Shown: positions 18,497-30,310 of the stretch, one piece after another
Layout: each line of letters begins with the position of its first letter
Position numbering within the stretch: the first letter of the stretch is position 1
Origin: Elusimicrobiota bacterium
GTDB taxonomy: Bacteria; Elusimicrobiota; Elusimicrobia; UBA1565; UBA9628
DNA length: 58,983 bases
Direction of reading: 5' to 3'
Assembly: GCA_023249675.1 (NCBI GenBank)
Contig: JAHFCE010000019.1
Coordinates: 1-58,983, forward strand
Position numbers and translations under genes: made by a program
The notes under the pieces: model-generated
What the model was told of the DNA's origin: nothing
Database searches by the model: none
The model's input: the letters and a program-made list of their open reading frames with translations, nothing else

Positions 18497-18769
18497 ATGA
18501 CGACTTGGATCGGCTACATCGGCCTCGTTTCATTCGCGCTCGCTTGGATACCGCAGTCCTGGGAAACCGTTCGCGAAGGCCGCTGCGGGGCCAACTTCTC
18601 GTTTCTCGCGCTGTCCGCATTGGGCAGCCTCTTTTTGGCAAGCTACGCTTTCCTCCGCGGCGACGCGGTGTTCGCGAGCCTCAATGCGTTGACGTCGGCC
18701 GGGGCGCTCGTCAACGTCTACTTCAGGTTATTCCCCCGTGTCGCTGGCAGAAATGTTGCGGGACGATAA
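18497..18769 (+). CDS. SemiSWEET/PQ-loop small membrane protein
   Basis: 90 residues from the ATG at 18497 (MTTWIGYIGLVSFALAWIPQSW). Three helices and the Pro-Gln pair in AWIPQSWETVREG match the single PQ-loop repeat of SemiSWEET proteins, which dimerise to form small sugar transporters. The length fits the family (about 85-95). It is divergent from the radical SAM/SPASM gene and ends 4 bases before the hemA start used here. The substrate cannot be read from the sequence. Confidence 0.72.
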   Translation: MTTWIGYIGLVSFALAWIPQSWETVREGRCGANFSFLALSALGSLFLASYAFLRGDAVFASLNALTSAGALVNVYFRLFPRVAGRNVAGR

Positions 18770-18773
18770 TCGC

Positions 18774-19835
18774 ATGAATCCTTCAGAACGGATGTTCGTC
18801 GTGGGACTCAACCACCTGAACGCGTCCGTCGCCTCGCGAGAGAAGGCGGCCGTCTCTTCACAGAACCTTCCCGGGATTCTCGAGCAGCTGAAAACCCTTG
18901 TTCCTCTTGACGAGGTCGTCGTGCTCTCCACCTGCAGCCGCGTGGAGGTCTTCGCGACCTGCGCGGACCCGCGCCGCGGACGCGAACTCGTGCGCGCGTG
19001 GTTCACGGACCGGGCCGGCGCCGAGATCGAGCCGGCCCTGTATGCGCGCGAGGGCGCCGACGCGCTCCTCCACCTCTTTCGCGTCGCCTCCGGACTCGAC
19101 TCGTGGATCATCGGCGAGACCGAGATCCTGGCCCAGGTCAAGCAGGCCTACCAGTCCGCCCTCGCCCGCGGCCTCACGCGCCGGATCTTAAATCGCGCGT
19201 TCCAAGAGGCGATCGCGGCGGGCAAGGACGTGCGCGCCGCCACCGGCATACAGAACGGCATCCACTCCATTGGGGGTGCCACCGCCCTGATGGCCAAACG
19301 CATTTTCGGAGAGAAGGCGGGCGGCGGCATTCTCGTGTTCGGAGCGGGTCCGGCCGCGGAGGCGGTGGTCCGCCACCTGGCCGCGAAGAAATTCGACCGC
19401 ATCGTCGTCGCCAACCGGACCCTCGAGAACGCCCGCGCCATCGCCGGCAAACTGGGGGGCGAGGCCGTCACACTCGACAAGGGGCTGGCACTCCTGGAAC
19501 AAGTCGAGGTCGCCGTCTTCTCCACGGCCGCGAGCGAACCCCTGCTCAACGCCAAGTTCCTCTCCCGCCTGCTCCCTCGGCGCCGCAAACCCCTTTTCCT
19601 CGTGGACCTCGGCGTGCCGCGCAACGTCGAGCCCGCCTGCGCGGGGCTCGACTCGGTTTACCTCTACGACCTCGATGATCTCAAACGCATGATCTGCGAC
19701 AGTATGTCGGGCAAGCTCGCCGAAAAAGACCGCGCCGAAGAGTTGGCGGCGCTTGCGGCGCACGCCTGCCGTCAGGAAGTGGACAAGCCGCCGCGCCTGG
19801 CTCCGGCGGCGCGTCCGGAGGCAACGCGCGTATGA
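18774..19835 (+). CDS. hemA: Glutamyl-tRNA reductase, C-terminally short
   Basis: 353 residues. The catalytic domain contains VLSTCSRVEVFA (nucleophile Cys near residue 50) and GLDSWIIGETEILAQVKQAY; the NADPH domain has ILVFGAGPAAEAVVRHL, then VANRT. It converts glutamyl-tRNA to glutamate-1-semialdehyde, the first step of tetrapyrrole synthesis. Usual length is 400-430 residues. Here the C-terminal dimerisation domain is almost missing after DDLKRMICDSMSGKL, with only about 40 residues remaining. The start at 18774 is uncertain; 18792 also fits. The end overlaps the downstream cytochrome gene by 4 bases. Confidence 0.88.
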   Translation: MNPSERMFVVGLNHLNASVASREKAAVSSQNLPGILEQLKTLVPLDEVVVLSTCSRVEVFATCADPRRGRELVRAWFTDRAGAEIEPALYAREGADALLHLFRVASGLDSWIIGETEILAQVKQAYQSALARGLTRRILNRAFQEAIAAGKDVRAATGIQNGIHSIGGATALMAKRIFGEKAGGGILVFGAGPAAEAVVRHLAAKKFDRIVVANRTLENARAIAGKLGGEAVTLDKGLALLEQVEVAVFSTAASEPLLNAKFLSRLLPRRRKPLFLVDLGVPRNVEPACAGLDSVYLYDLDDLKRMICDSMSGKLAEKDRAEELAALAAHACRQEVDKPPRLAPAARPEATRV

Positions 19836-20332
19836 ACACGATCATCGTCCTGGCGCTGCTGATCTTCTCGGCCCCCGTGCTCGCGCAGGAGCGCTTTACT
19901 CCCGAGCAGCGAGAGGCACGCTACTACTATGATTTAGGACCGAAGGCGGCGGACGTGACCTCCTACCCTAAGGAGCAGCAGGAAAACTATCAGATCTTCG
20001 CCAAGACCTGCTCCCAATGCCACACGTCGGCGCGGGCCCTCAACTCCCCGCTTGTCTCGCGCGAGGACTGGAGAAGGTTCATCAAGCGCATGCACGCAAG
20101 GGCCAAGATGCGCGCGGGCGCCGCCATCAATAGAGAGGCCGCCCAAGCGGCGATCGATTTCTTGGCTTACGACTCGCAAGTCCGAAAAGTCAAAGACAAG
20201 GCCGGCTTCGCGGCCAGGACCTCGGAACTCAAAATCCTCTTCGCGGAAGTCCTCCGCGAGCGCGCCCGGATTCAATTGGAAGAAGACAAGAAGAAGGTCC
20301 AAGAGCCGGCGCCATACACGGGGGTCAAATGA
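19832..20332 (+). CDS. Periplasmic monohaem c-type cytochrome
   Basis: 166 residues with a clear signal peptide (MNTIIVLALLIFSAPVLAQ). There is one CSQCH haem site near residue 60, in the context YQIFAKTCSQCHTSARALN. A helical, charged C-terminus follows (FAEVLRERARIQLEEDKKK). The SREDWRRFIKRMHARAKM segment resembles small photosynthetic or respiratory cytochromes that sense or carry electrons. It sits between hemA and the Crp/Fnr gene, overlapping both by 4 bases. The axial partner of the haem is uncertain; a Met in KRMHARAKM is a candidate. Confidence 0.8.
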   Translation: MNTIIVLALLIFSAPVLAQERFTPEQREARYYYDLGPKAADVTSYPKEQQENYQIFAKTCSQCHTSARALNSPLVSREDWRRFIKRMHARAKMRAGAAINREAAQAAIDFLAYDSQVRKVKDKAGFAARTSELKILFAEVLRERARIQLEEDKKKVQEPAPYTGVK

Positions 20333-21030
20333 AACCCCAACTCCATCCGTTGCAGTCTGTTCCCCTCTTACGCCACGTCACTCCAGCGGAATGGCGGCAC
20401 TTTATGCAGTTGGCGCCGGTTCACGCTTATCGCCCCGGAAACATTCTCTTCTATCAAGGGAATCCCCCCCTCGGCCTTCATTTCATCAGCAACGGCCGGG
20501 TCAAGCTGATCAAGGAGGATCGCGCCGGACGGCGCCAGATCGTCCGCATCGTCCAGGGCCCGGACCTGCTCGGAGACCGGGCATTTTTCGCGGAGAGGCC
20601 CTACGCATGCACCGGGGAAGCCATGGAAGAATCCTCGATCAGCTTTCTGCAGCCCCGCCATTTTTGGGAGTTCTTCGGACGCAATCCGGATACGCTACGC
20701 CTTCTCGCCCAAAGGTTCGCCCAGGAACTGGGCCGCGCCGAGGACTACATGCACTGCATCGCCGTCTGCACGGTCAGCGCGCGCATGGCCAACCGTTTGT
20801 TGAAGTTTTCAAAGCACCCCGGTCGCACGCGGTTGCCCCAGGACGAGTTCGTCCTGGGCGAGACCCGCACCGAGCTTGCCCAAGTTCTGGGAACGACCCC
20901 CGAAGCGGTCAGCCGCTCCTTGGCGAAGCTTTGCTCCAAAGGTTTGATCGCCGTGTCGGGCCGGCGCGTGCGCGTCCTCAATGAGGACCGCCTGCGTCTG
21001 TCCGCATGCCTGCACGATTCGATGAATTAG
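20329..21030 (+). CDS. Crp/Fnr family transcription regulator
   Basis: 233 residues. The cyclic-nucleotide-binding-like barrel spans about 15-130 (YRPGNILFYQGNPPLGLHFISNGRVKLIKED, then GDRAFFAERPYACTGEAMEE). A helix-turn-helix domain follows (TRTELAQVLGTTPEAVSRSLAKLCSKGLI). The N-terminal Cys cluster of FNR is absent, so an O2-sensing [4Fe-4S] is unlikely; the ligand is unknown. The recognition helix PEAVSRSLAKL has the E-x-x-S-R pattern that reads TTGAT half-sites, and a perfect TTGAT-N4-ATCAA site begins 15 bases after its stop. It therefore very likely controls the decahaem conduit operon. Confidence 0.9.
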   Translation: MKPQLHPLQSVPLLRHVTPAEWRHFMQLAPVHAYRPGNILFYQGNPPLGLHFISNGRVKLIKEDRAGRRQIVRIVQGPDLLGDRAFFAERPYACTGEAMEESSISFLQPRHFWEFFGRNPDTLRLLAQRFAQELGRAEDYMHCIAVCTVSARMANRLLKFSKHPGRTRLPQDEFVLGETRTELAQVLGTTPEAVSRSLAKLCSKGLIAVSGRRVRVLNEDRLRLSACLHDSMN

Positions 21031-21044
21031 GCCGCAGACGGATA

Positions 21045-21058
21045 TTGATCTTTATCAA
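21045..21058. promoter_or_regulatory. FNR/CRP-type operator TTGAT-N4-ATCAA
   Basis: The sequence TTGATCTTTATCAA is an exact match to the FNR-family consensus palindrome. It lies in the 114-base gap between the Crp/Fnr gene and the decahaem cytochrome gene, 87 bases before the latter's start. A -10-like CATGAT at 21085-21090 would put the site near -40 to -45, suited to activation. Confidence 0.85.
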
Positions 21059-21078
21059 GTGATTCGTTGCTCTTGTTC

Positions 21079-21105
21079 AGAGCGCATGATCGCAGCATGT
21101 GCTCT
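21079..21105. promoter_or_regulatory. Inverted repeat in the decahaem operon leader
   Basis: AGAGCGCATG (21079-21088) and CATGTGCTCT (21096-21105) form a 10-base dyad with one G-T mismatch and a 7-base spacer. It overlaps the likely core promoter or early transcript of the mtrAB-like operon. It could be a second operator or an RNA hairpin; there is no T-tract, so a terminator for the regulator gene is less likely. Confidence 0.5.
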
Positions 21106-21144
21106 GATATGACAGTCATCGTTCATATGAAGCGAGGAGATACC

Positions 21145-22125
21145 ATGGACGCTCGAAGCACTCGTCGAATCCGCCGGAGCGGTTTTGCGCTCGCGGCGAT
21201 GATCGCGATGTCGGCCTTGCTCTTCAAGACGCCGGCGCTCGCGGCCGAGCCGGAAGCGGCCAAAAAAACCGAGCCCGCCGTCAAGGAGCGCATACCCGAC
21301 GTCTTGGCGCCGAGCCCAGCGCCGGCGCCGGCCGCGTCTGCCACAGCCGCCAAGATGGTCGGGCGAGAGGTCTGCGCCACCTGCCACACCGAGAAGGCGG
21401 AAGCCTTCGACAAGACCTTCCACGGCCGCAAGTCCCTGTCGAACCCGAAGCTCGCCAACGCCTGCGAGTCCTGCCACGGCCCGGGCAGCCTCCACGCCGA
21501 GAGCGGTGACCCGACCATGATCCTCAATCCCAAGAAGCTCGACTCCGGCGCGGCTGCCGCCCTGTGCATGACCTGCCACAAGGACAAGGCGCTCATGATG
21601 TGGAAGACCGGGGCCCACGCCAACAACAACCTGAGCTGCGTTACCTGCCATAGTGTGCATGACGGCGAGGGGCGCAAGAGCCTCAGCAAGGGCGCCACCG
21701 ACACTTGCCTGACCTGCCACAAGAAGCAGAAGACGGACATGCGCCTGGCCTCCCACCACCCCGTCCCAGAAGGCAAGATGACCTGCGTCTCCTGCCACAA
21801 CCCTCATGGCGGCATCGAAGGCAATCTCAAAGCCGACTCCGTGGAAGAGCAATGCAGCAAATGTCACTCGGACAAACTCGGCCCATTCGCCAACGAACAT
21901 CCGCCTGTGGCCGACAGCTGCACCAATTGCCACGCCCCCCACGGCTCGGCCAACGAGCGGCTCCTGAAGCAGCCCATCCAGATGTTGTGCATCAGTTGCC
22001 ACCGCTCGGCGCACGGCGGCTCCGGACCCACCTCGACGCAGGCCACCACGTTCAAGCGTGAGCGCTGCGTGGACTGCCATAAGGACATTCACGGCTCCGA
22101 CCGCAGCCCGTTCTTCGCCCAATAA
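21145..22125 (+). CDS. MtrA/DmsE-like decahaem cytochrome c
   Basis: 326 residues; ATG 21145 is chosen for GAGGAG at 21134-21139 (5-base spacing). A signal peptide (RRSGFALAAMIAMSALLFKTPALA) and an Ala/Pro-rich linker precede ten CXXCH sites: CATCH, CESCH, CMTCH, CVTCH, CLTCH, CVSCH, CSKCH, CTNCH, CISCH and CVDCH. Size and haem number match MtrA/MtoA/PioA/DmsE, which insert into an outer-membrane porin and carry electrons across it. The next gene encodes that porin. The operator upstream suggests redox-linked control by the adjacent Crp/Fnr protein. Direction of flow (to an extracellular acceptor or from Fe(II)) cannot be decided from sequence. Confidence 0.88.
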   Translation: MDARSTRRIRRSGFALAAMIAMSALLFKTPALAAEPEAAKKTEPAVKERIPDVLAPSPAPAPAASATAAKMVGREVCATCHTEKAEAFDKTFHGRKSLSNPKLANACESCHGPGSLHAESGDPTMILNPKKLDSGAAAALCMTCHKDKALMMWKTGAHANNNLSCVTCHSVHDGEGRKSLSKGATDTCLTCHKKQKTDMRLASHHPVPEGKMTCVSCHNPHGGIEGNLKADSVEEQCSKCHSDKLGPFANEHPPVADSCTNCHAPHGSANERLLKQPIQMLCISCHRSAHGGSGPTSTQATTFKRERCVDCHKDIHGSDRSPFFAQ

Positions 22126-22146
22126 CTGTCGACCCTGGAGATCTCT

Positions 22147-24114
22147 ATGAAATTAACAAGGCAGTCCAAGGTGAAAGCCGCGACGCGCGTGATGATGGCA
22201 GTCCTGTTGATGGGGCCATGCGCGCTGCCCGCGCGGGCCGCGGCCGACGCGTCGGCCGGAGTCAAATATGAGGACCTCGATACGACCGGCCACCTCAACC
22301 AGGTGATGGAATACAATGGCAAGACCTACGGAGGCAAAAACGCCGTGCGCGGCGACATCCGGGTGGGCAACCAGGGCGCCACTGGACTGTTCGACTTTTA
22401 CCTCCTCGACATCGGCAGCAATGAGGAGAGCGGCGGCTTCAACGCCGACCACAACGCCGGATGGAAGCTGAACGCGAAGTACCAGACTTTGCACCACCGC
22501 ATCGGCTACATGCGCATCGGCGAGATCCACAGCGGCAGTTGGCTGCCGAAAACGGCGATCACTTTGCGGGACGCTCCGGACGCCAATCTCCTCATCCGGC
22601 GCACCGAGTCGGAGTTCGGGGTGGCGTACGCCGACCCCGCAAACTCGGCCCGCTGGCTGAGCGCGCAGTACTGGGCGGCGGAAAAATACGGAAGCATGTC
22701 ATGGAGCTTGACCGGAAGCCCGAACATCCAGCGCACGCGCGTCGAGGTCGACAACATCAAGCGAGACTTCACCCTCGGCTTAGGATCAAGCATTCGGGAA
22801 GCCAGCGCGGTGAGCGTCGACTTTATCCACACGAACTTTAGCGACTTGGCCAGCAAGCTGACCTCGATCGCGGACGGCGGCACCGGCAGCAGCAACAACG
22901 GCGGTTTCGTCAAGTACCCGAGCCCGAATCAGAGCATGAACGCAGCAGAGTTCAAGTTCCGCCACGACGTGAGCAAGAATTTCGCGGTGACCGGGGCTTT
23001 CACCGGGCATCAGCGCGTCAACGAGCGCACGAACTTCAAGCACGACGCCGTGGTCGGCGCGCTCAACGCGGCCTACGCGGCCACGAAAACCCTGTCGCTG
23101 ACCAGCAAGCTGTACATGCAGGCGCTCCAGGTCGAGGAGAACGGCTATGTTCCGGAGCCGGGCCGCGGCGATGCCGTGATCCGGACCAACACGCACCAGC
23201 TGGACAAGACCGCGCTTCGCGGCGAGTTCATCGTGAACTACCGGCCCGTTGAAAAGCTCCGCCTGAAGGGCGCCTACAAGATCGAGGTCACCAACCGCCG
23301 CGACGCTCCGTCTAAGTTCTACGCTCCGGATCGCTACTTCGTCGATGGTTATTTCGTGCAGGGCGCGGCGAACAACGAGGTCGCCCGCAACGATACGAAG
23401 CACACCTTCAACGCAACCGCCAAGGTGGAGCTCCCATTGGCCATGGAGGTCGAGGCTGGCTACAAGAAGATGCAGGCCAACTTCCCAGCCTTCATCAACA
23501 TGCCCACCAAACAGGACGAGGTCACCGGCCAGTGGACGGTGCCGCTTCCCCTGGATGTGACTTTATCCTTCCTCGGGGGCTACCTTAAGGAGCGGAACAC
23601 GCGCCACGACTTCGAACACTACAACCAGACCCGCAATACCTACCGCGCGGGCCTCGACTGGGCGGCAACCAACAAGATGTTCCTCGGCGTGGACGCGAGC
23701 TACGAGACCGTGCGCTCCTTCCAGGAATGGTACTTCGGCAACGGCAGCGCCACACCCTCGGCGACCACTTCGTTCCACACGTCGGCGCTCACCCAGACAC
23801 GCAATACCATCTGGGGCGCCCACACCAAGGTCAACCTGCCCAAGGGGTTCGTCGTCATGGGCAACGGTTCGTACACGCGCTCGACGGTTAAAACCCCGGC
23901 ACTGCTCCGCTACACGGGAGGCACGCTCGAGGATTATACGCCGACCAACACCGCCATCGCCCGGGGCAGCGCGGCCGTGGAATTCACGCCTGAGAGATAC
24001 AAAAACCTCACCGCGCGGGCCAGCTACTCGGTCAGCGACTGGGTGGACAAGTTCGACGAGCTCAACAGCGGCCGGGCCAGCGTCGCCCAGCTCGGCGTAG
24101 CCATGAAGTTCTAG
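22147..24114 (+). CDS. MtrB/PioB-type outer-membrane porin for the decahaem cytochrome
   Basis: 655 residues with a signal peptide ending near PARAAA. The mature part begins GVKYEDLDTTGHLNQVMEYNGKTYGGKN and alternates short polar and aromatic strands over the whole length, as in the 26-28-strand MtrB barrel. It closes with ARASYSVSDWVDKFDELNSG...LGVAMKF, ending in Phe as outer-membrane barrels do. The N-terminal CxxC of Shewanella MtrB is not present. It lies 21 bases after the decahaem gene. No MtrC-type surface cytochrome gene follows, so the conduit resembles two-part PioAB/MtoAB/DmsEF systems. Confidence 0.85.
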   Translation: MKLTRQSKVKAATRVMMAVLLMGPCALPARAAADASAGVKYEDLDTTGHLNQVMEYNGKTYGGKNAVRGDIRVGNQGATGLFDFYLLDIGSNEESGGFNADHNAGWKLNAKYQTLHHRIGYMRIGEIHSGSWLPKTAITLRDAPDANLLIRRTESEFGVAYADPANSARWLSAQYWAAEKYGSMSWSLTGSPNIQRTRVEVDNIKRDFTLGLGSSIREASAVSVDFIHTNFSDLASKLTSIADGGTGSSNNGGFVKYPSPNQSMNAAEFKFRHDVSKNFAVTGAFTGHQRVNERTNFKHDAVVGALNAAYAATKTLSLTSKLYMQALQVEENGYVPEPGRGDAVIRTNTHQLDKTALRGEFIVNYRPVEKLRLKGAYKIEVTNRRDAPSKFYAPDRYFVDGYFVQGAANNEVARNDTKHTFNATAKVELPLAMEVEAGYKKMQANFPAFINMPTKQDEVTGQWTVPLPLDVTLSFLGGYLKERNTRHDFEHYNQTRNTYRAGLDWAATNKMFLGVDASYETVRSFQEWYFGNGSATPSATTSFHTSALTQTRNTIWGAHTKVNLPKGFVVMGNGSYTRSTVKTPALLRYTGGTLEDYTPTNTAIARGSAAVEFTPERYKNLTARASYSVSDWVDKFDELNSGRASVAQLGVAMKF

Positions 24115-24163
24115 GAGATATCATATACTGCGTCGTCCGACACCGAATCGAATGGAGAACGAT

Positions 24164-24532
24164 ATGAAAACAATTCTGCCGCTCACCATGCTCCTCACCT
24201 GCGTCGCCCTTGCCGCCTCGGCGTCCGACGCGCCGACTCCGAAAACGGATCCCGCTGCCGCGGCATTCAAGGCGAAATGCGCCTCCTGCCACGCCAAGGA
24301 CGCCACGGGCAGCCCCGCCATGGCCAAGATGTTCAAGGTCAAGCCCGAGACTCTGAACCTGGTCGATACGGACACCCTCGCCCAGAAGGACGAGGGCCTG
24401 GCAAAGACCATCGAGTCGGGAAAAGGGAAGATGCCCGCCTTCACCAAGGAGAAGCTTAAGGACGTCTCCGTGAAGGACTTGGTCGCCTTCGTGCGCTCTT
24501 TGGCTCCAGCGAAGGCAGAAGCCAAGCCGTGA
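24164..24532 (+). CDS. Small periplasmic monohaem cytochrome c
   Basis: 122 residues from the ATG at 24164, with GGAGA at 24154-24158. A signal peptide (MKTILPLTMLLTCVALAASA) precedes a CASCH site near residue 45 and a short class I fold: GSPAMAKMFKVKPETLNL, then KGKMPAFTKEKLKDVSVKDLVAFVRSL with the distal Met in GKMPAF. It is a likely soluble shuttle between the quinol oxidase encoded next and the outer-membrane conduit encoded before. It overlaps the Rieske gene by 4 bases. Confidence 0.85.
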   Translation: MKTILPLTMLLTCVALAASASDAPTPKTDPAAAAFKAKCASCHAKDATGSPAMAKMFKVKPETLNLVDTDTLAQKDEGLAKTIESGKGKMPAFTKEKLKDVSVKDLVAFVRSLAPAKAEAKP

Positions 24533-25056
24533 GCGCGCCGCAAGAACCCGGCTGCGGCTGCAAGGCAAAGCCGCCCGAGAACATCGGCCGCCGCGACTTT
24601 CTCACGCGGGCGACCGTGGCCTTGGGCGCCGTCATTGCCGCCGCGCTCTCGGCGACGGGTCTCGGATATTTCATTTCCCCGGCCTTCCAGCGCCGAGATG
24701 AGGACTGGGTGGACTTAGGCCGCGCCGGCGAGTTCAAGGCGGGCTCTCCCGCCTTGGTGGAGTTCACCCAAAGACGGCGCGACGCCTGGGTCACCTCCGA
24801 GCGCCGCTCCTCGGCCTGGGTCGTGACCGCGGACGGCAAGAACTTCACGGCGTTCGATCCGCGCTGCACTCACTTGGGCTGCCCCTATCGTTGGGACGCC
24901 GGCAGCTCCCGCTTCGTCTGCCCCTGCCACACGGCGGTGTTCGGACCTGACGGCAAGGTCATCTCGGGTCCGCCCCCTCGCCCCCTCGACCAATATGCAA
25001 CCAAGATCGCGGGCAACCGCCTCATGATCCTGCCCAAGGCGGAAAAAAAGGCATGA
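24529..25056 (+). CDS. petC: Rieske [2Fe-2S] protein of a cytochrome b6c-type complex
   Basis: 175 residues starting at GTG 24529, which overlaps the cytochrome stop. A Tat-like IGRRDFLTRATVALGAVIAAALSATGLGYF forms signal and membrane anchor. Cluster ligands are CTHLGC (near 116) and CPCHTAVF (near 137), the Rieske CxHxxC...CxxH pattern. The N-terminus holds an extra GCGCK. It oxidises quinol at the Qo site and passes electrons to the haem domains of the third subunit. Confidence 0.92.
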   Translation: MSAPQEPGCGCKAKPPENIGRRDFLTRATVALGAVIAAALSATGLGYFISPAFQRRDEDWVDLGRAGEFKAGSPALVEFTQRRRDAWVTSERRSSAWVVTADGKNFTAFDPRCTHLGCPYRWDAGSSRFVCPCHTAVFGPDGKVISGPPPRPLDQYATKIAGNRLMILPKAEKKA

Positions 25057-25745
25057 AAGACTGCGCCCTGGCGGCCTATTCGTGGGTGTGCGAGCGAACG
25101 GGACTCGATCAAGTCTGGACGGCGCTCATGGAGCGCCACATTCCCGAAGCCAAGGGCTGGGTCGGACTCCTGTACACCTTGGGCAGCGCCACCATGATGA
25201 TCTTCACGGTTCAAGCCGTGACCGGATTCCTTCTGGCCACAAACTATGTGCCGTCACCGGATCATGCCTACGACTCGGTGCGCTACATCGACGCGGCGGT
25301 CCTCTTCGGCCGCGTCGTGCGCGGGCTGCACCACTGGGGTGCGAGCTTCATGGTCGTGTTCGCCGTGCTCCACATGCTGCGCGTCTACTTCATGGGTTCC
25401 TACAAGTACCCCCGCGAAGCGACTTGGCTCGCCGGCGTCGGCCTGCTCCTGCTCGTGCTGGGCTTCAGCTTCACCGGCTATCTCCTGCCCTGGGATCAGA
25501 AAGCGTATTGGGCGACGGTCGTGGGCACGACCATAGCAGGTCAAACTCCGGTGGTCGGCGCGTGGATCGCCAATATCCTGCGCGGCACCGACGGCATGGG
25601 CGCTCCAACGTTGAGCCGGTTCTACGCCCTTCACGTCCTCGCCTTGCCCGCGCTCACCGCAGGGCTGATCGGTGTGCACTTGTTTTTGGTGGTTTGGCAC
25701 GGGATCTCGGAACCCCCGAAAAGATCCCCGGGCAAGGTTCCCTAA
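25053..25745 (+). CDS. petB: Cytochrome b6-type subunit
   Basis: 230 residues with four helices, the length of cytochrome b6. The bis-His haem ligand pairs are visible in RGLHHWGASFMVVFAVLHMLR and in the last helix (FYALHVLALP, GVHLFLVVWHG). The GYLLPWDQKAYWATVVGTTI segment is characteristic of the b6 Qo region. It overlaps the Rieske gene by 4 bases and is followed after 1 base by the subunit IV fusion. Confidence 0.93.
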   Translation: MKDCALAAYSWVCERTGLDQVWTALMERHIPEAKGWVGLLYTLGSATMMIFTVQAVTGFLLATNYVPSPDHAYDSVRYIDAAVLFGRVVRGLHHWGASFMVVFAVLHMLRVYFMGSYKYPREATWLAGVGLLLLVLGFSFTGYLLPWDQKAYWATVVGTTIAGQTPVVGAWIANILRGTDGMGAPTLSRFYALHVLALPALTAGLIGVHLFLVVWHGISEPPKRSPGKVP

Positions 25746-25746
25746 C

Positions 25747-26706
25747 ATGAATCCCTGGCACGAAGACTATAAGCGCCGCTACGCCCAACTTAAGGAGAAC
25801 GGCAAGTCCTTTTTTCCTCACACGGTGTTCAAGGACGTCTGCGTCGCCCTCCTGGTCCTCACCGTTCTGTTCGCTTTGGCCTATTACCGCCCGGCCGAGC
25901 TCGAGCCCCTCGCCGATCCGACCGACACCCATTACAACCCGCGGCCGGAGTGGTACTTTCTCTTCCTCTTCCAAGCGTTGAAGTTCTTCCCCGGCAATCT
26001 CGAGGCCGTCGCGGCCATCCTCCTGCCCGGGCTCGGCGTCCTGCTGCTCATGGGCGTGCCCTTCCTCGACCGCGGACCCAAACGCCACCCCTTCGACCGC
26101 CCGTTATGGACCGGCCTGGGCCTGGCGGGCATCGCCGGCTTCGCCGCGCTGACTTGGGCGGGCGTGCGCAGCCCGCTCACGAACCCCACCGAGGAAGCCG
26201 ATCCCCAGGTCGCGGCCGGACGCCGGCTGTACGACCAGATGAGCTGCGCGTACTGCCACAAAATCGGCGGCAAGGGCGGCGCGGTCGGACCGGCCCTGGA
26301 TAAGGTCGCCGGCGACGAGACGGAGGAGTGGCTCACCAGGCACTTCAAGGATCCCCAAAGCGTCACGCCCGGCTCCGCCATGCCCAAGATGAATCTTCTC
26401 GACGACGAGGTCAAGATCCTCGTGGCTTATATGAAGTCCATGCACGCCGAAGAGCCCTTCACGAAGGCCGCACCCAAAATCTTCGCAGACAACTGCGCGG
26501 CTTGCCACAAGCTCGGCAAAGAGGGCGGCGAAGCCGGCCCCGATCTTTCCTTTATCGGCACGGCCCGCGACAAGGCCTTCATTAAAAAATACGTGGAAGA
26601 CCCCTCCACGTCCAAGCCCGACTCCGCGATGCCGGCTTTCAAGGGCCAGCTGACCGATGTCCAGATCGAGGACGTCGCCCGCTACCTCTCAAGCCAAGGG
26701 CGCTGA
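25747..26706 (+). CDS. Subunit IV (PetD-like) fused to two cytochrome c domains
   Basis: 319 residues from ATG 25747. Residues about 1-140 are the C-terminal half of cytochrome b: helices plus the Qo motif in NPRPEWYFLFLFQALKFFPG (PEWY). A further helix (about 120-138) leads to two class I cytochrome c domains with CAYCH (near 173) and CAACH (near 254). Their distal methionines lie in GSAMPKMNLL and DSAMPAFKG. Such b/c fusions replace cytochrome c1 or f in b6c-type complexes of several phyla. Electrons leave through the terminal haem to periplasmic cytochromes. Confidence 0.92.
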   Translation: MNPWHEDYKRRYAQLKENGKSFFPHTVFKDVCVALLVLTVLFALAYYRPAELEPLADPTDTHYNPRPEWYFLFLFQALKFFPGNLEAVAAILLPGLGVLLLMGVPFLDRGPKRHPFDRPLWTGLGLAGIAGFAALTWAGVRSPLTNPTEEADPQVAAGRRLYDQMSCAYCHKIGGKGGAVGPALDKVAGDETEEWLTRHFKDPQSVTPGSAMPKMNLLDDEVKILVAYMKSMHAEEPFTKAAPKIFADNCAACHKLGKEGGEAGPDLSFIGTARDKAFIKKYVEDPSTSKPDSAMPAFKGQLTDVQIEDVARYLSSQGR

Positions 26707-26737: not shown

Positions 26738-27337
26738 ATGAAAATTCGTTTTGCCGCCCTGCTCCCGATCCTCGCGACGCTTCAAACAACGGCCTGCCGC
26801 GAAGAAGCGATCACGCGCTCCCGCGTGCCGAAAGCCGAAACGAGAGTCGTCCGCGCCGCGCCTGACCGAGCCATAGGCGAGGGAATGCCGCTTCCAAAAT
26901 CCGTTGGTCAAGCGGCCCGAGGACTCGCCTGGACGCTGCCTCCCGGCTGGCAAGAAGTCCCCGGCAACGGCATGCGCCTGGCGACCTTCGCACCTCCCGG
27001 AAATCTCAAGACGGAAGCCACCGTCGTCGCCCTCCCCGGCGATTCAGGCGGGGAACTGGCCAACGTCAATCGTTGGCGCGGCCAGATCGCCCTGCCCCCG
27101 ACCGACGAAGCGGGCATGGCCGCCTCGCGCACGACTCTCGCCACGAAGGCCGGTCCCGCGGCGATCTATGATTTTACGAGCACAGGAGAGGTCCGCACGC
27201 GCCTGATCGCCGCCGTCGTCAAGACGGGCGACACGACCTGGTTTTTCAAGCTCATGGGCGACGCCACGGCGACCGAGACCGCACGGACGGGCTTCCTGGC
27301 CATTATCAAAGGATTGGCTCCCGATGCGCCGAAATGA
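26738..27337 (+). CDS. Conserved secreted protein or lipoprotein linked to cytochrome c maturation genes
   Basis: 199 residues from ATG 26738. An N-terminal hydrophobic stretch ends in LQTTAC, an imperfect lipobox with Cys 20. The mature part contains LPPGWQEVPGNGMRLATFAPPG, GDSGGELANVNRWRGQIALPP and a final TGDTTWFFKLMGD region. I recall similar PPGW...MR...NVNRWR proteins beside ResB/CcsA genes in other phyla, but know no function. It overlaps the ResB gene by 14 bases, so it is probably produced with the maturation machinery. Confidence 0.6.
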   Translation: MKIRFAALLPILATLQTTACREEAITRSRVPKAETRVVRAAPDRAIGEGMPLPKSVGQAARGLAWTLPPGWQEVPGNGMRLATFAPPGNLKTEATVVALPGDSGGELANVNRWRGQIALPPTDEAGMAASRTTLATKAGPAAIYDFTSTGEVRTRLIAAVVKTGDTTWFFKLMGDATATETARTGFLAIIKGLAPDAPK

Positions 27338-28481
27338 CGCCTTAAGCTGGCTGATCGACGCGCTCAGCTCGCTGAGGCTCACGCTCGTCTGCCTCATTTT
27401 GTTGATGGTCCTGATCGTCGCCTGCACGCTGGCTCAAGTCCAACTCGGCACGCATCTCGCCGTCGAGCGCTACATTCGTGCCTTGCTCGTCTGGTGGTCC
27501 CCGGAAGGCTCTGCTTTGCGCGTGCCCGTTTTCCCAGGGGGAGGGCTCGTCGGCGGCATCCTCCTGATCAACCTCATGTTCGCGCAGTTCCGCCGCCTGG
27601 AACTATCCTGGCGCAAAGGCGGACTGTGGATCGTGCACATAGGCCTGGCCCTTCTATTCATCGGCGAATTCGCGACCGCACTCTTCCAGGTCGAAAGCAA
27701 CATGGCGATCGAAGAAGGTCAGACGAAGAGCTACAGCGAGGACTACCGGCGTATGGAACTCGCCGTCGTCGATGACACCGACAAGGAATTCGACGACGAG
27801 CGCGGCATTCCCGACTCCCTGCTCAAATCACGTCGCGAGATCTCCGACGCCTCCCTGCCCTTCCAATTGGTCGTGCACGCCTACCACGACAACGCGGCGC
27901 TGACGAGGAGCCGTCCCGGAAGCCCCCCCTCCATCGTCACCGCGGGCGTGGGCGGCGGCATGTCCTTTGAGCCCCTGCCCCCCGCAGCCGGCGACAACGA
28001 CCAGAATACGGCCGTCGCGGTGGTCGAGCCCGTGCTCAAAAATGGGACCAGCCTCGGCGTCTTTCTGCTGTCGAACGGCTTGGGCGCGCCCCAAGGTTTT
28101 ATTCATGAGGGCCGAAGCTGGAAGTTGGCCCTGCGCCTGCGCCATTACCAGCATCCGTTCTCGCTGACGCTGAAGGATTTTCGCCACGATCTGTATCCCG
28201 GCACGGACATTCCTAAGAATTTTTCGAGCCTCGTGCGCCTGAAGGACCCGCGCGCCGGCGATGATCGCGACGTGCTGATATACATGAACTCACCCCTGCG
28301 CCATGACGGCCTGACCTTCTATCAGGCGAGCTTCGGCAAGAACGACACGCTGTCGATCCTGCAAGTGGTGCGCAACCCTTCCTGGACCTTGCCCTATCTG
28401 TCGTGCGCGTTGGTGGGCCTGGGCCTGCTATGGCACTTCGCTTTGATGCTGCGCAAGTCGCTGCGCGAGAGGAGCACATGA
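27324..28481 (+). CDS. ResB/CcsB-like cytochrome c biogenesis protein
   Basis: 385 residues. Three N-terminal helices (LRLTLVCLILLMVLIVACTLAQ, GGLVGGILLINLMF, GGLWIVHIGLALLFIGEF) are followed by a large periplasmic domain (about 125-350). That domain ends in SPLRHDGLTFYQASFGKNDT, typical of ResB, and a last helix follows (WTLPYLSCALVGLGLLWHF). With CcsA it forms the System II haem lyase that attaches haem to the many CXXCH proteins encoded here. The end overlaps the next gene by 4 bases. Confidence 0.85.
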   Translation: MRRNDALSWLIDALSSLRLTLVCLILLMVLIVACTLAQVQLGTHLAVERYIRALLVWWSPEGSALRVPVFPGGGLVGGILLINLMFAQFRRLELSWRKGGLWIVHIGLALLFIGEFATALFQVESNMAIEEGQTKSYSEDYRRMELAVVDDTDKEFDDERGIPDSLLKSRREISDASLPFQLVVHAYHDNAALTRSRPGSPPSIVTAGVGGGMSFEPLPPAAGDNDQNTAVAVVEPVLKNGTSLGVFLLSNGLGAPQGFIHEGRSWKLALRLRHYQHPFSLTLKDFRHDLYPGTDIPKNFSSLVRLKDPRAGDDRDVLIYMNSPLRHDGLTFYQASFGKNDTLSILQVVRNPSWTLPYLSCALVGLGLLWHFALMLRKSLRERST

Positions 28482-30310
28482 AGACCTCGCGCCTCCAGGC
28501 AACGGTGTTTCTGGGCGCATTGGCGCTGGCCGCCTGGCCGGGCGCGGTCCCCGCGCCTAAATCCGATATAGACTATGAAATCTTCGCGCGCCTGCCGATT
28601 CTTGAGGGCGGCCGCGTCAAGCCGCTGGACAGCTTCGCGCGCAGCGCCTTGCTCTCCATCCGCGGCAAGCAAAGCGTGCCGGTGGACGGCCGCGCGTTGT
28701 CCGCGACGCGGTGGCTCCTTGACGCCACGTTCAAGCCCGAAACCGCCGACACCTACCCCGCCTTCGTGATCGATGACCCCGAAGTGCTAGGACTGCTCGG
28801 CCTGGCTTCAGGCAAGAGCCGCTACTTCGCCTACTGGCAGATCGAGCCTAAGCGCGAAGAAGTCTCAAAACAGGCCGCCTCCGCCGACCAGCAGTCGAGC
28901 GGACGGCGCTCGCGCTTCCAGGATGCTCTGCTCAATCTCAACAATCGGCTGACTTTGTACGAGCGCATCAAGAACACCTTCATGATCTCCGGCCAAGGCG
29001 ATCCGGCCCTGGAACTGGCCGCGTTCACCTCCTTGCTTCCCCGCGCCCTGAGCGCCTTCCATTCGAACAACCCCACGGACAAGGATCGCCGCGCCATGAA
29101 GGCGCTGGCGGAGATGCTCCAGCGCTACCAATTTCTCGCGCAGGCAGGAGCTTTCAAGGCGCTTCCCCCGAAAGCGGGCGCGCCCGCCGATGCCTGGTCC
29201 AACACCGGAGAGGCCTTGTCCAACCCGATGAGCGGCCGCGACCCGCATCCGGGCCTGGCCTCGTTCGCCCGGATGGGACGCGCTTATCGCGCCGCCGACG
29301 CCGCCGCCTTCAACGCGGCCCTCGCCGAGCACGCGGCTTGGATTGCCCGCAACCGCCCCGACGCCGCGCGCGCGGCCTTCGCTGAAGCGCTGTTTAACAA
29401 ATCCTCCCCATTCGTTTCCGGCATGGCCCTGTACCTGACGGCGCTCCTCCTGATCTTCGCCGCCTGGGCGACGCGGCGCGCGGACGTCGCCGCCGCCGGG
29501 CGGGCCCTCGCCTGGGCCGCCTTCGCCGTGCACACGCTGGGCCTGCTGGCGCGCACCGTCTTGCAGGGCCGCCCCCCCGTCACCAATCTCTACTCCTCGG
29601 CGGTGTTCGTGGGCTGGGCGTCCGCCATCCTGGGGCTTGTCTCCGAGCGTTTCCATAAGCGCGGCTTCGCCGTCGCGGGCGCCTGCGCTATCGGATTTAC
29701 GACTTTGCTGATCGCCCATCACCTGAGCGCGTCCGGCGACACCCTGGAGATGATGCGCGCGGTCCTGGACTCGAATTTTTGGCTCGCCACGCACGTCGTC
29801 GCGATCACGATCGGCTACAGCTCGACGTATCTCGCCGGCATGCTCGGCATCGCCTGGGTCGTGCGGCGTCATCTGCTCCTCAAGCCCGATCCCGAGACGT
29901 CGAAGGCCCTGGCGTCTTTGGCCTACGGGGTGATCGCCTTCAGCCTGCTCTTCAGCTTCGTAGGCACCGTGCTTGGAGGAATCTGGGCCGACCAAAGTTG
30001 GGGACGGTTCTGGGGCTGGGATCCCAAAGAAAATGGGGCTTTGCTGATCGTGCTCTGGAACGCGCTGATCCTGCACGCGCGCTGGGGCGGCTACGTCCGC
30101 GAACGCGGCATCATGCTGATGACGATCTTCGGCAACATCATCGTCAGCCTCTCCTGGTTCGGCGTGAATATGCTCGGCATCGGCCTGCACTCGTATGGCT
30201 TCATGGACAAAGCTTTCCTATGGCTTTCCGCGTTCTGCGCGCTCCAGCTGGCACTCATGTGCCTCGGCGCGCTTCCTCCGCGCTTTTGGACCGAAGCCCG
30301 GCGCCCCTGA
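28478..30310 (+). CDS. ccsA: CcsA/ResC-like haem handling protein with long N-terminal domain
   Basis: 610 residues from ATG 28478, with AGGAG 3 bases upstream. The N-terminal third is soluble (IFARLPILEGGRVKPLDSFARSALLSIRGK), as in ccsBA proteins of several phyla. The C-terminal half is the multi-helix CcsA core with the haem-binding WWD motif WGRFWGWDPKENGALLIVLWNALILHARW (in parts) and conserved His in LATHVVAITIGYSS. It moves haem to the periplasm and presents it to apocytochromes. It is the last gene of the run from 24164 to 30310; a 44-base gap with a regulatory dyad follows. Confidence 0.88.
   Translation: MKTSRLQATVFLGALALAAWPGAVPAPKSDIDYEIFARLPILEGGRVKPLDSFARSALLSIRGKQSVPVDGRALSATRWLLDATFKPETADTYPAFVIDDPEVLGLLGLASGKSRYFAYWQIEPKREEVSKQAASADQQSSGRRSRFQDALLNLNNRLTLYERIKNTFMISGQGDPALELAAFTSLLPRALSAFHSNNPTDKDRRAMKALAEMLQRYQFLAQAGAFKALPPKAGAPADAWSNTGEALSNPMSGRDPHPGLASFARMGRAYRAADAAAFNAALAEHAAWIARNRPDAARAAFAEALFNKSSPFVSGMALYLTALLLIFAAWATRRADVAAAGRALAWAAFAVHTLGLLARTVLQGRPPVTNLYSSAVFVGWASAILGLVSERFHKRGFAVAGACAIGFTTLLIAHHLSASGDTLEMMRAVLDSNFWLATHVVAITIGYSSTYLAGMLGIAWVVRRHLLLKPDPETSKALASLAYGVIAFSLLFSFVGTVLGGIWADQSWGRFWGWDPKENGALLIVLWNALILHARWGGYVRERGIMLMTIFGNIIVSLSWFGVNMLGIGLHSYGFMDKAFLWLSAFCALQLALMCLGALPPRFWTEARRP

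Follow-up and report, generated by a model that had tools for sequence, protein, structure and literature searches.

The 58,983-nucleotide stretch of DNA analysed here (the window) comes from an uncultured groundwater-type bacterium of the phylum Elusimicrobiota with a genome of 2.60 Mb, and carries a real and probably functional local switch for an electron conduit, as judged from sequence comparisons. The switch consists of a gene for a Crp/Fnr-family protein of 233 aa (REG, 20329..21030, + strand), a perfect FNR-type palindrome TTGATCTTTATCAA (21045..21058) and the genes for a DmsE/MtrA-type periplasmic decahaem cytochrome (DEC, 21145..22125, + strand) and its presumed MtrB/PioB or GSU2204-type outer-membrane porin partner (POR, 22147..24114, + strand). 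The palindrome, referred to below as the operator, lies in the 114-bp gap between REG and DEC, with 14 bases separating it from the REG stop codon and 86 bases from the decahaem ATG at 21145; site, spacing and genes are thus as given in a preliminary description of this DNA. Gene order, the exact site, its conservation in orthologous intergenic regions and its co-occurrence or co-loss with REG are direct observations. On these grounds we think it likely that REG is a dedicated local regulator of the Crp/Fnr type that sets transcription of the conduit via TTGATCTTTATCAA.

The comparative evidence was obtained with a set of 41 decahaem genes in which a site was scored if it had no more than one mismatch to TTGAYNNNNATCAA and lay within 420 bp upstream. 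Where a REG homologue is linked upstream, 16 of 18 decahaem genes had such a site, against 2 of the 23 unlinked genes (Fisher 2e-7, the rows being related to each other). One of the two unlinked positives is the tandem second DEC-POR copy of G015, which has its own exact site. This co-occurrence supports the earlier suggestion that the conduit is the target of its local regulator, and indicates that the conduit site tracks linkage to REG, not the second FNR-like protein of this genome (C15, discussed below). Where the REG orthologue is at least 68% identical and a conduit adjoins it (G007, G015, G006, G008 and G013, all of the same genus), TTGAY-N4-ATCAA starts 13 nt past the stop codon; G047 has an exact site, and G041 and G021 have a one-mismatch site at REG. 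A tighter form of the pattern, TTGAYNWWWATCAA (fifth base Y, spacer rich in A/T), is found once each in G007, G013, G012 and G047, in every case at REG. Across eight aligned intergenic regions with a mean column identity of 58% the operator's TTGA and CAA do not vary. The preliminary description had proposed that absence of the site upstream of orthologous operons would count against it; the site was present there, and was missing where either the linked REG or the conduit is missing. Thus in G004:C10 and G036:C37, where DEC is 63-68% identical, there is neither a linked REG nor a site, and G016 has kept REG (76%) with a tetrahaem NapC-like gene in place of DEC and no site there. G004 has no conduit site yet still encodes a second, Fe-S-type FNR. 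REG homologues of the Elusimicrobiales (36-39% identity) also lie upstream of decahaem genes, with the variants TTGCC/TTGCT-N4-ATCAA, and an order-level search found no further close REG orthologues. As a separate observation, the unlinked decahaem genes L117, L119 and L126 have upstream ATGAY-N4-ATCAT palindromes instead of TTGAY-N4-ATCAA, and L117 and L119 also have more distant Crp/Fnr genes upstream; ATGAY-N4-ATCAT may represent a variant of the operator that belongs to other Crp/Fnr paralogues.

How often the operator occurs was followed in the window and in the genome, genome-wide statements being based here and below on pattern searches, family searches and selected stretches. That no other exact site exists, as had been noted by eye, held for the window, where TTGAT-N4-ATCAA occurs once (21045-21058), but not for the genome, which contains eight exact copies in 2.60 Mb (none of the reversed control pattern), and uniqueness of the operator in the genome was therefore rejected. 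Of the eight, four are intergenic and three fall within predicted open reading frames (ORFs); the last (C54:38005) is in a region where no ORF was called. The half-site pair, counted over spacers of 0-24, has 52 genome copies, including the eight with spacer 4. When as many as two mismatches are tolerated, the window contains 23 sites vs nine expected, and loose matches are therefore of little weight. The tighter form occurs at two places in the genome, the other copy being inside a long ORF (C28:46777), which leaves the operator described here as the one copy that is not within an ORF. Nor is the site frequent at random positions: when exact TTGAY-N4-ATCAA within 30 nt past the stop was tallied for 1181 predicted ORF ends (all fetched loci, a redundant set), matches were found after REG orthologues (seven distinct loci) and one LemA-like gene, and nowhere else.

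REG belongs to the Crp/Fnr superfamily (PF00027, 60.2 bits, cut-off 27.5; PF13545, 55.6 bits, cut-off 27), and its AlphaFold2 (AF2) model (predicted local distance difference test score, pLDDT, 88.9) has the CRP/FNR fold, with Z scores of about 23-24 to GlxR and Mtb CRP, about 23 to FNR and 20 to FixK2 in an overall range of 19-24. An E-x-x-S-R reading helix is a feature of FNR, and the recognition helix of REG (...TTPEAVSR) has this pattern. The FNR cysteine cluster (C-x2-C-x5-C plus a central Cys) is lacking, there being no cysteine before residue 34; both points bear out the preliminary description. REG scores 42 bits with the FNR model (cut-off 228), 67.9 bits with the NCBIfam CRP model (cut-off 266) and 50.3 bits with the NCBIfam FixK equivalog, a Caulobacter FixK model (cut-off 300), all below the cut-offs; matches to the solved FixK2 (4i2o), DNR (3dkw) and CRP chains are about 40-65 bits (45 bits for DNR). 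In CRP an Arg-Ser pair belongs to the phosphate-binding cassette for cyclic AMP (cAMP). The CRP segment 'feegqeRSA' aligns with 'faerpy-ACT' of REG, and REG as a cAMP receptor was rejected, the Arg-Ser pair of the cassette being absent. REG has cysteine and histidine residues of its own. All 12 aligned members of the clade to which it belongs have M-H-C-x3-C where the dimer helix ends (H142-C143-x3-C147 in REG), and 11 of the 12 have a C-terminal C-x-H (L174 has C-x2-C). The 17 other aligned homologues have neither the HC-x3-C hinge nor the C-x-H tail, and several of them have two to five N-terminal cysteines. Hinge and tail co-occur within one clade only and so do not count as independent evidence; that together they form a new ligand site is put forward purely as a hypothesis from the alignment.

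Several observations weigh against REG as the dedicated regulator of the conduit. Seven further exact palindromes lie elsewhere in the genome; three of the 16 linked sites (L044, L076 and L082) are one-mismatch sites in or near the 3' end of REG; and G034 has REG and DEC adjoining, yet no clear TTGAY site. Placement of −35 and −10 regions by eye gave no geometry consistent across the orthologues. Sites of nearly the same consensus also occur beside the gene for an FNR-type protein, so the site alone does not name its binder. This protein, C15, is one of three Crp/Fnr proteins found in the genome with PF13545, the others being REG and the CRP-like C18 (helix TTREPLTR). C15 has the FNR cysteine pattern C-x2-C-x5-C in its N-terminal CDWCPYKKNC, and in several genomes TTGAY-N4-RTCAA sites are found just after its gene and ahead of sdh/frd-like, 2-oxoacid:ferredoxin oxidoreductase and LemA-neighbour genes. 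Because the sites recur both beside the C15 gene and upstream of these other genes, C15 probably has an FNR-type regulon of its own in this Elusimicrobiota genus, the consensus being almost the same. Such a regulon would be in keeping with C15 as the main user of the conduit site, REG controlling something else and adjoining the conduit by operon layout, as would the higher score of C15 on the FNR model (62.5 vs 42 bits), both values being far below the cut-off of 228. We regard this as improbable. C15-type homologues are present where decahaem genes have no site (G004:C10, G006:C37 and G016:C21), the C15 helix reads E-x-x-V-R and not E-x-x-S-R, and the putative C15 sites mostly have a CTAR-type spacer vs the A/T-rich spacer at REG, with an exception in G016 C52 (TTGATGTTTATCAA). 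REG is preferred as the binder because the conduit site tracks REG and not C15.

An intermediate arrangement, in which the operator is shared and FNR supplies an anoxic signal to which REG adds a conduit-specific one, has a smaller though real chance of being correct. Two Crp/Fnr proteins of compatible consensus are encoded in this one genome, and for Dinoroseobacter a cascade-like control by FnrL together with several Dnr proteins is known (PMC5398030), but FNR at the conduit site finds no support in the analysis, where co-occurrence is with REG only. That the palindrome is a chance match, or acts as a stem-loop or terminator in RNA without binding a regulator, is very improbable: a 5-bp A/U-rich stem could form, but its fold z-score is only −1.4 and there is no T-run, on which grounds an RNA hairpin or terminator was rejected, and the half-sites are kept through intergenic divergence, with almost no background at other ORF ends and none for the control pattern in the genome. 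A GC-richer inverted repeat capable of forming a hairpin (AGAGCGCATG...CATGTGCTCT) is present at 21079-21107, between the operator and the DEC start, and is not kept in orthologues. As to C15 itself, recurring TTGAYCTAR-type sites were seen upstream of sdh/frd-like, 2-oxoacid:ferredoxin oxidoreductase and LemA-neighbour genes (L205, L207-L209; L204; L035 and L210). Directly behind the FNR-like gene, both at C15 of this genome (L042:4515-4775) and in L211, L212, L213, L215 and L216, there are between one and three genes in tandem that encode short secreted peptides in which 'AQFRPCVWPNxCK' motifs are repeated. One or two FNR-type sites lie ahead of these genes, and the peptides were assigned to no family.

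With REG as the binder, the mechanism that we propose is that a REG dimer binds TTGATCTTTATCAA in the gap between REG and DEC and, once bound, would govern transcription of DEC and POR (21145-24114). The genes for cytochrome c, the Rieske protein and cytochrome b, which follow in the same direction, would probably be under the same control, given transcriptional linkage. REG would be made together with the products of hemA and a small cytochrome gene and would then switch the conduit, a wiring that would be feed-forward because the site is at the conduit promoter and not upstream of REG. By analogy with FixK on pioABC we infer that REG activates rather than represses the conduit, and its input would be of a redox, haem or nitric oxide (NO) type.

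DEC has ten CxxCH motifs and scores 240.1 bits with TIGR03508 (DmsE/MtrA; cut-off 192.2), which places it in that family; with the GSU2203 model it reaches 245 bits, below the cut-off of 325. A phmmer search matched it to chain A of 6r2q (E=7e-47), an entry which we take to be the MtrCAB complex, the printed molecule name being different. POR is less clear, at 22.5 bits with PF11854 (MtrB/PioB), just under the gathering cut-off of 23, and 44 bits, again below the cut-off, with the GSU2204 model. It has the C-terminal Phe typical of outer-membrane proteins and a conserved position after DEC, and a porin role is therefore still indicated. The genome search found no extracellular protein with an MtrC/F domain and two haem-copper oxidase genes above the cut-off; oxidases together with the lack of an MtrC/F-type cytochrome would fit electron uptake of the PioAB/MtoAB type, but are not proof of it.

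The genes next to REG homologues vary. Conservation in G008 (L167:2297-5555) extends over REG, the operator and the beginning of the DEC gene, with the start of its leader peptide, but the decahaem protein is 36% identical to DEC and the porin scores 234 bits with PF11854, the two being a different MtrAB-type pair. In G041, G021, G022, G012 and G004 REG is adjoined by a monohaem protein of about 420-485 aa, and these downstream proteins (L169, L171, L174, L176 and L182) have a haem motif like that of Cyc2 and end in Phe. The Cyc2 motif is AXPXFAR[Q/K][T/Y] before CXXCH and PXL after it (PMC8406198); L176 (AVPSYARQT..CSACH..PEL) and L174 (ALPSFAREY..CEQCH..PVL) each differ from it at one position, and L171, L169 and L182 are further away. 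No Pfam family matched the Cyc2-like proteins, and the AF2 model made of such a neighbour in search of a fused 16-strand porin barrel had a pLDDT of 32.9, was not interpretable and was not used. A Cyc2-like gene has been reported in an Elusimicrobiota metagenome-assembled genome of the genus GWA2-66-18 (PMC8357290). G021 has a second REG homologue, and the gene after it encodes a molybdopterin oxidoreductase (PF00384, 201 bits) resembling NarG-type enzymes. Members of the REG family are thus also found next to Cyc2-like or other respiratory genes.

The closest precedent is FixK of Rhodopseudomonas palustris TIE-1, which binds and activates pioABC, the purified protein binding the proximal FixK I box centred at −44.5 (PMC3050613). 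As is proposed for REG, the site of action of this Crp/Fnr protein is a box of the FixK/FNR type ahead of an operon for a decahaem cytochrome and a porin (pioA, pioB). The phyla differ, however, and FixK is global, whereas REG has its gene immediately before its presumed target, shares the intergenic gap with it and has its own Cys/His motifs; in place of a pioC-type gene for a high-potential iron-sulfur protein, none of which was seen in the cluster here, there are Rieske and cytochrome b genes. In Shewanella oneidensis CRP binds upstream of omcA and mtrCAB (PMC4417206), which resembles the arrangement proposed here in that a Crp-family regulator acts upstream of an outer-membrane cytochrome-porin operon, but that CRP is global and cAMP-dependent, whereas REG is without the Arg-Ser pair and no MtrC/F-domain protein was found in its genome. 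The DNR box is of the TTGAT-N4-ATCAA type (PMC1274295), and FNR, DNR and FixK2 share fold and operator type with REG, which differs from FNR in lacking the cysteine cluster. Among conduits, GSU2203/GSU2204 and MtrAB/PioAB are the nearest known systems, DEC matching TIGR03508 and 6r2q chain A; the differences are that POR is below the cut-offs of both GSU2204 and PF11854 and that no extracellular MtrC/F-type partner was found in the genome.

The surrounding genes are all on the + strand. Upstream are hemA for glutamyl-tRNA reductase (18738..19835; TIGR01035, 278 bits, above the cut-off) and a gene for a small secreted monohaem c-type cytochrome of 166 aa (cyc166, 19832..20332; one CxxCH; Cytochrome_CBB3 22 bits, below the cut-off). 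Because hemA overlaps cyc166, and cyc166 overlaps REG, by 4 bp each, the three genes look like one operon, of which hemA would be the first gene; the order hemA-(cyc166)-REG is kept in G007, G015, G006, G008, G013 and G016. The presumed promoter and leader of the conduit operon (21059..21144) has a second conserved block, TTGC...TTCA, soon after the operator and a ribosome site, GCGAGGAG, both seen in the alignment. Behind the conduit come genes for a monohaem cytochrome c of 126 aa (24152..24532; PF13442, 49 bits), a Rieske protein (24529-25056; Rieske, 47 bits), a cytochrome b (25053-25745; Cytochrome_B, 159 bits) and a fusion of a cytochrome b C-terminal part to a di-haem cytochrome c (25672-26706; Cytochrom_C, 88 bits). 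These quinol-cytochrome c oxidoreductase genes (24529..26706) are in the same order in G007 and G013. ResB and CcsB for c-type cytochrome maturation follow (27324..30310; ResB 64 bits; TIGR03144 129 bits, below the cut-off).

The principle of this control is ordinary, being that of the known Crp/Fnr control of cytochrome-porin operons; what is new is a locally dedicated and exchangeable regulator-conduit arrangement, conserved across a phylum, with an uncharacterised regulator subfamily. In the open-access literature we found no paper on the regulation of electron conduits in Elusimicrobiota, nor, in the literature searched, a study of how bacteria outside the Proteobacteria decide to build a costly multihaem outer-membrane wire. 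A wider view, which we offer tentatively, is that REG belongs to an Elusimicrobiota Crp/Fnr subfamily dedicated to outer-membrane and respiratory electron modules, in which regulator and operator would form a fixed socket and conduits (MtrAB-type families, Cyc2-like) would be exchanged, the clade of the window having replaced the N-terminal cysteines of its relatives by a new sensor site made up of H142-C143-x3-C147 and the C-x-H tail. REG is a candidate sensor of redox state, haem or NO, with sensing residues unlike those of FNR and CRP. The regulator-operator-conduit unit is small, has the same layout across the phylum and could easily be tested in a heterologous host, and it predicts which uncharacterised genes are electron conduits.

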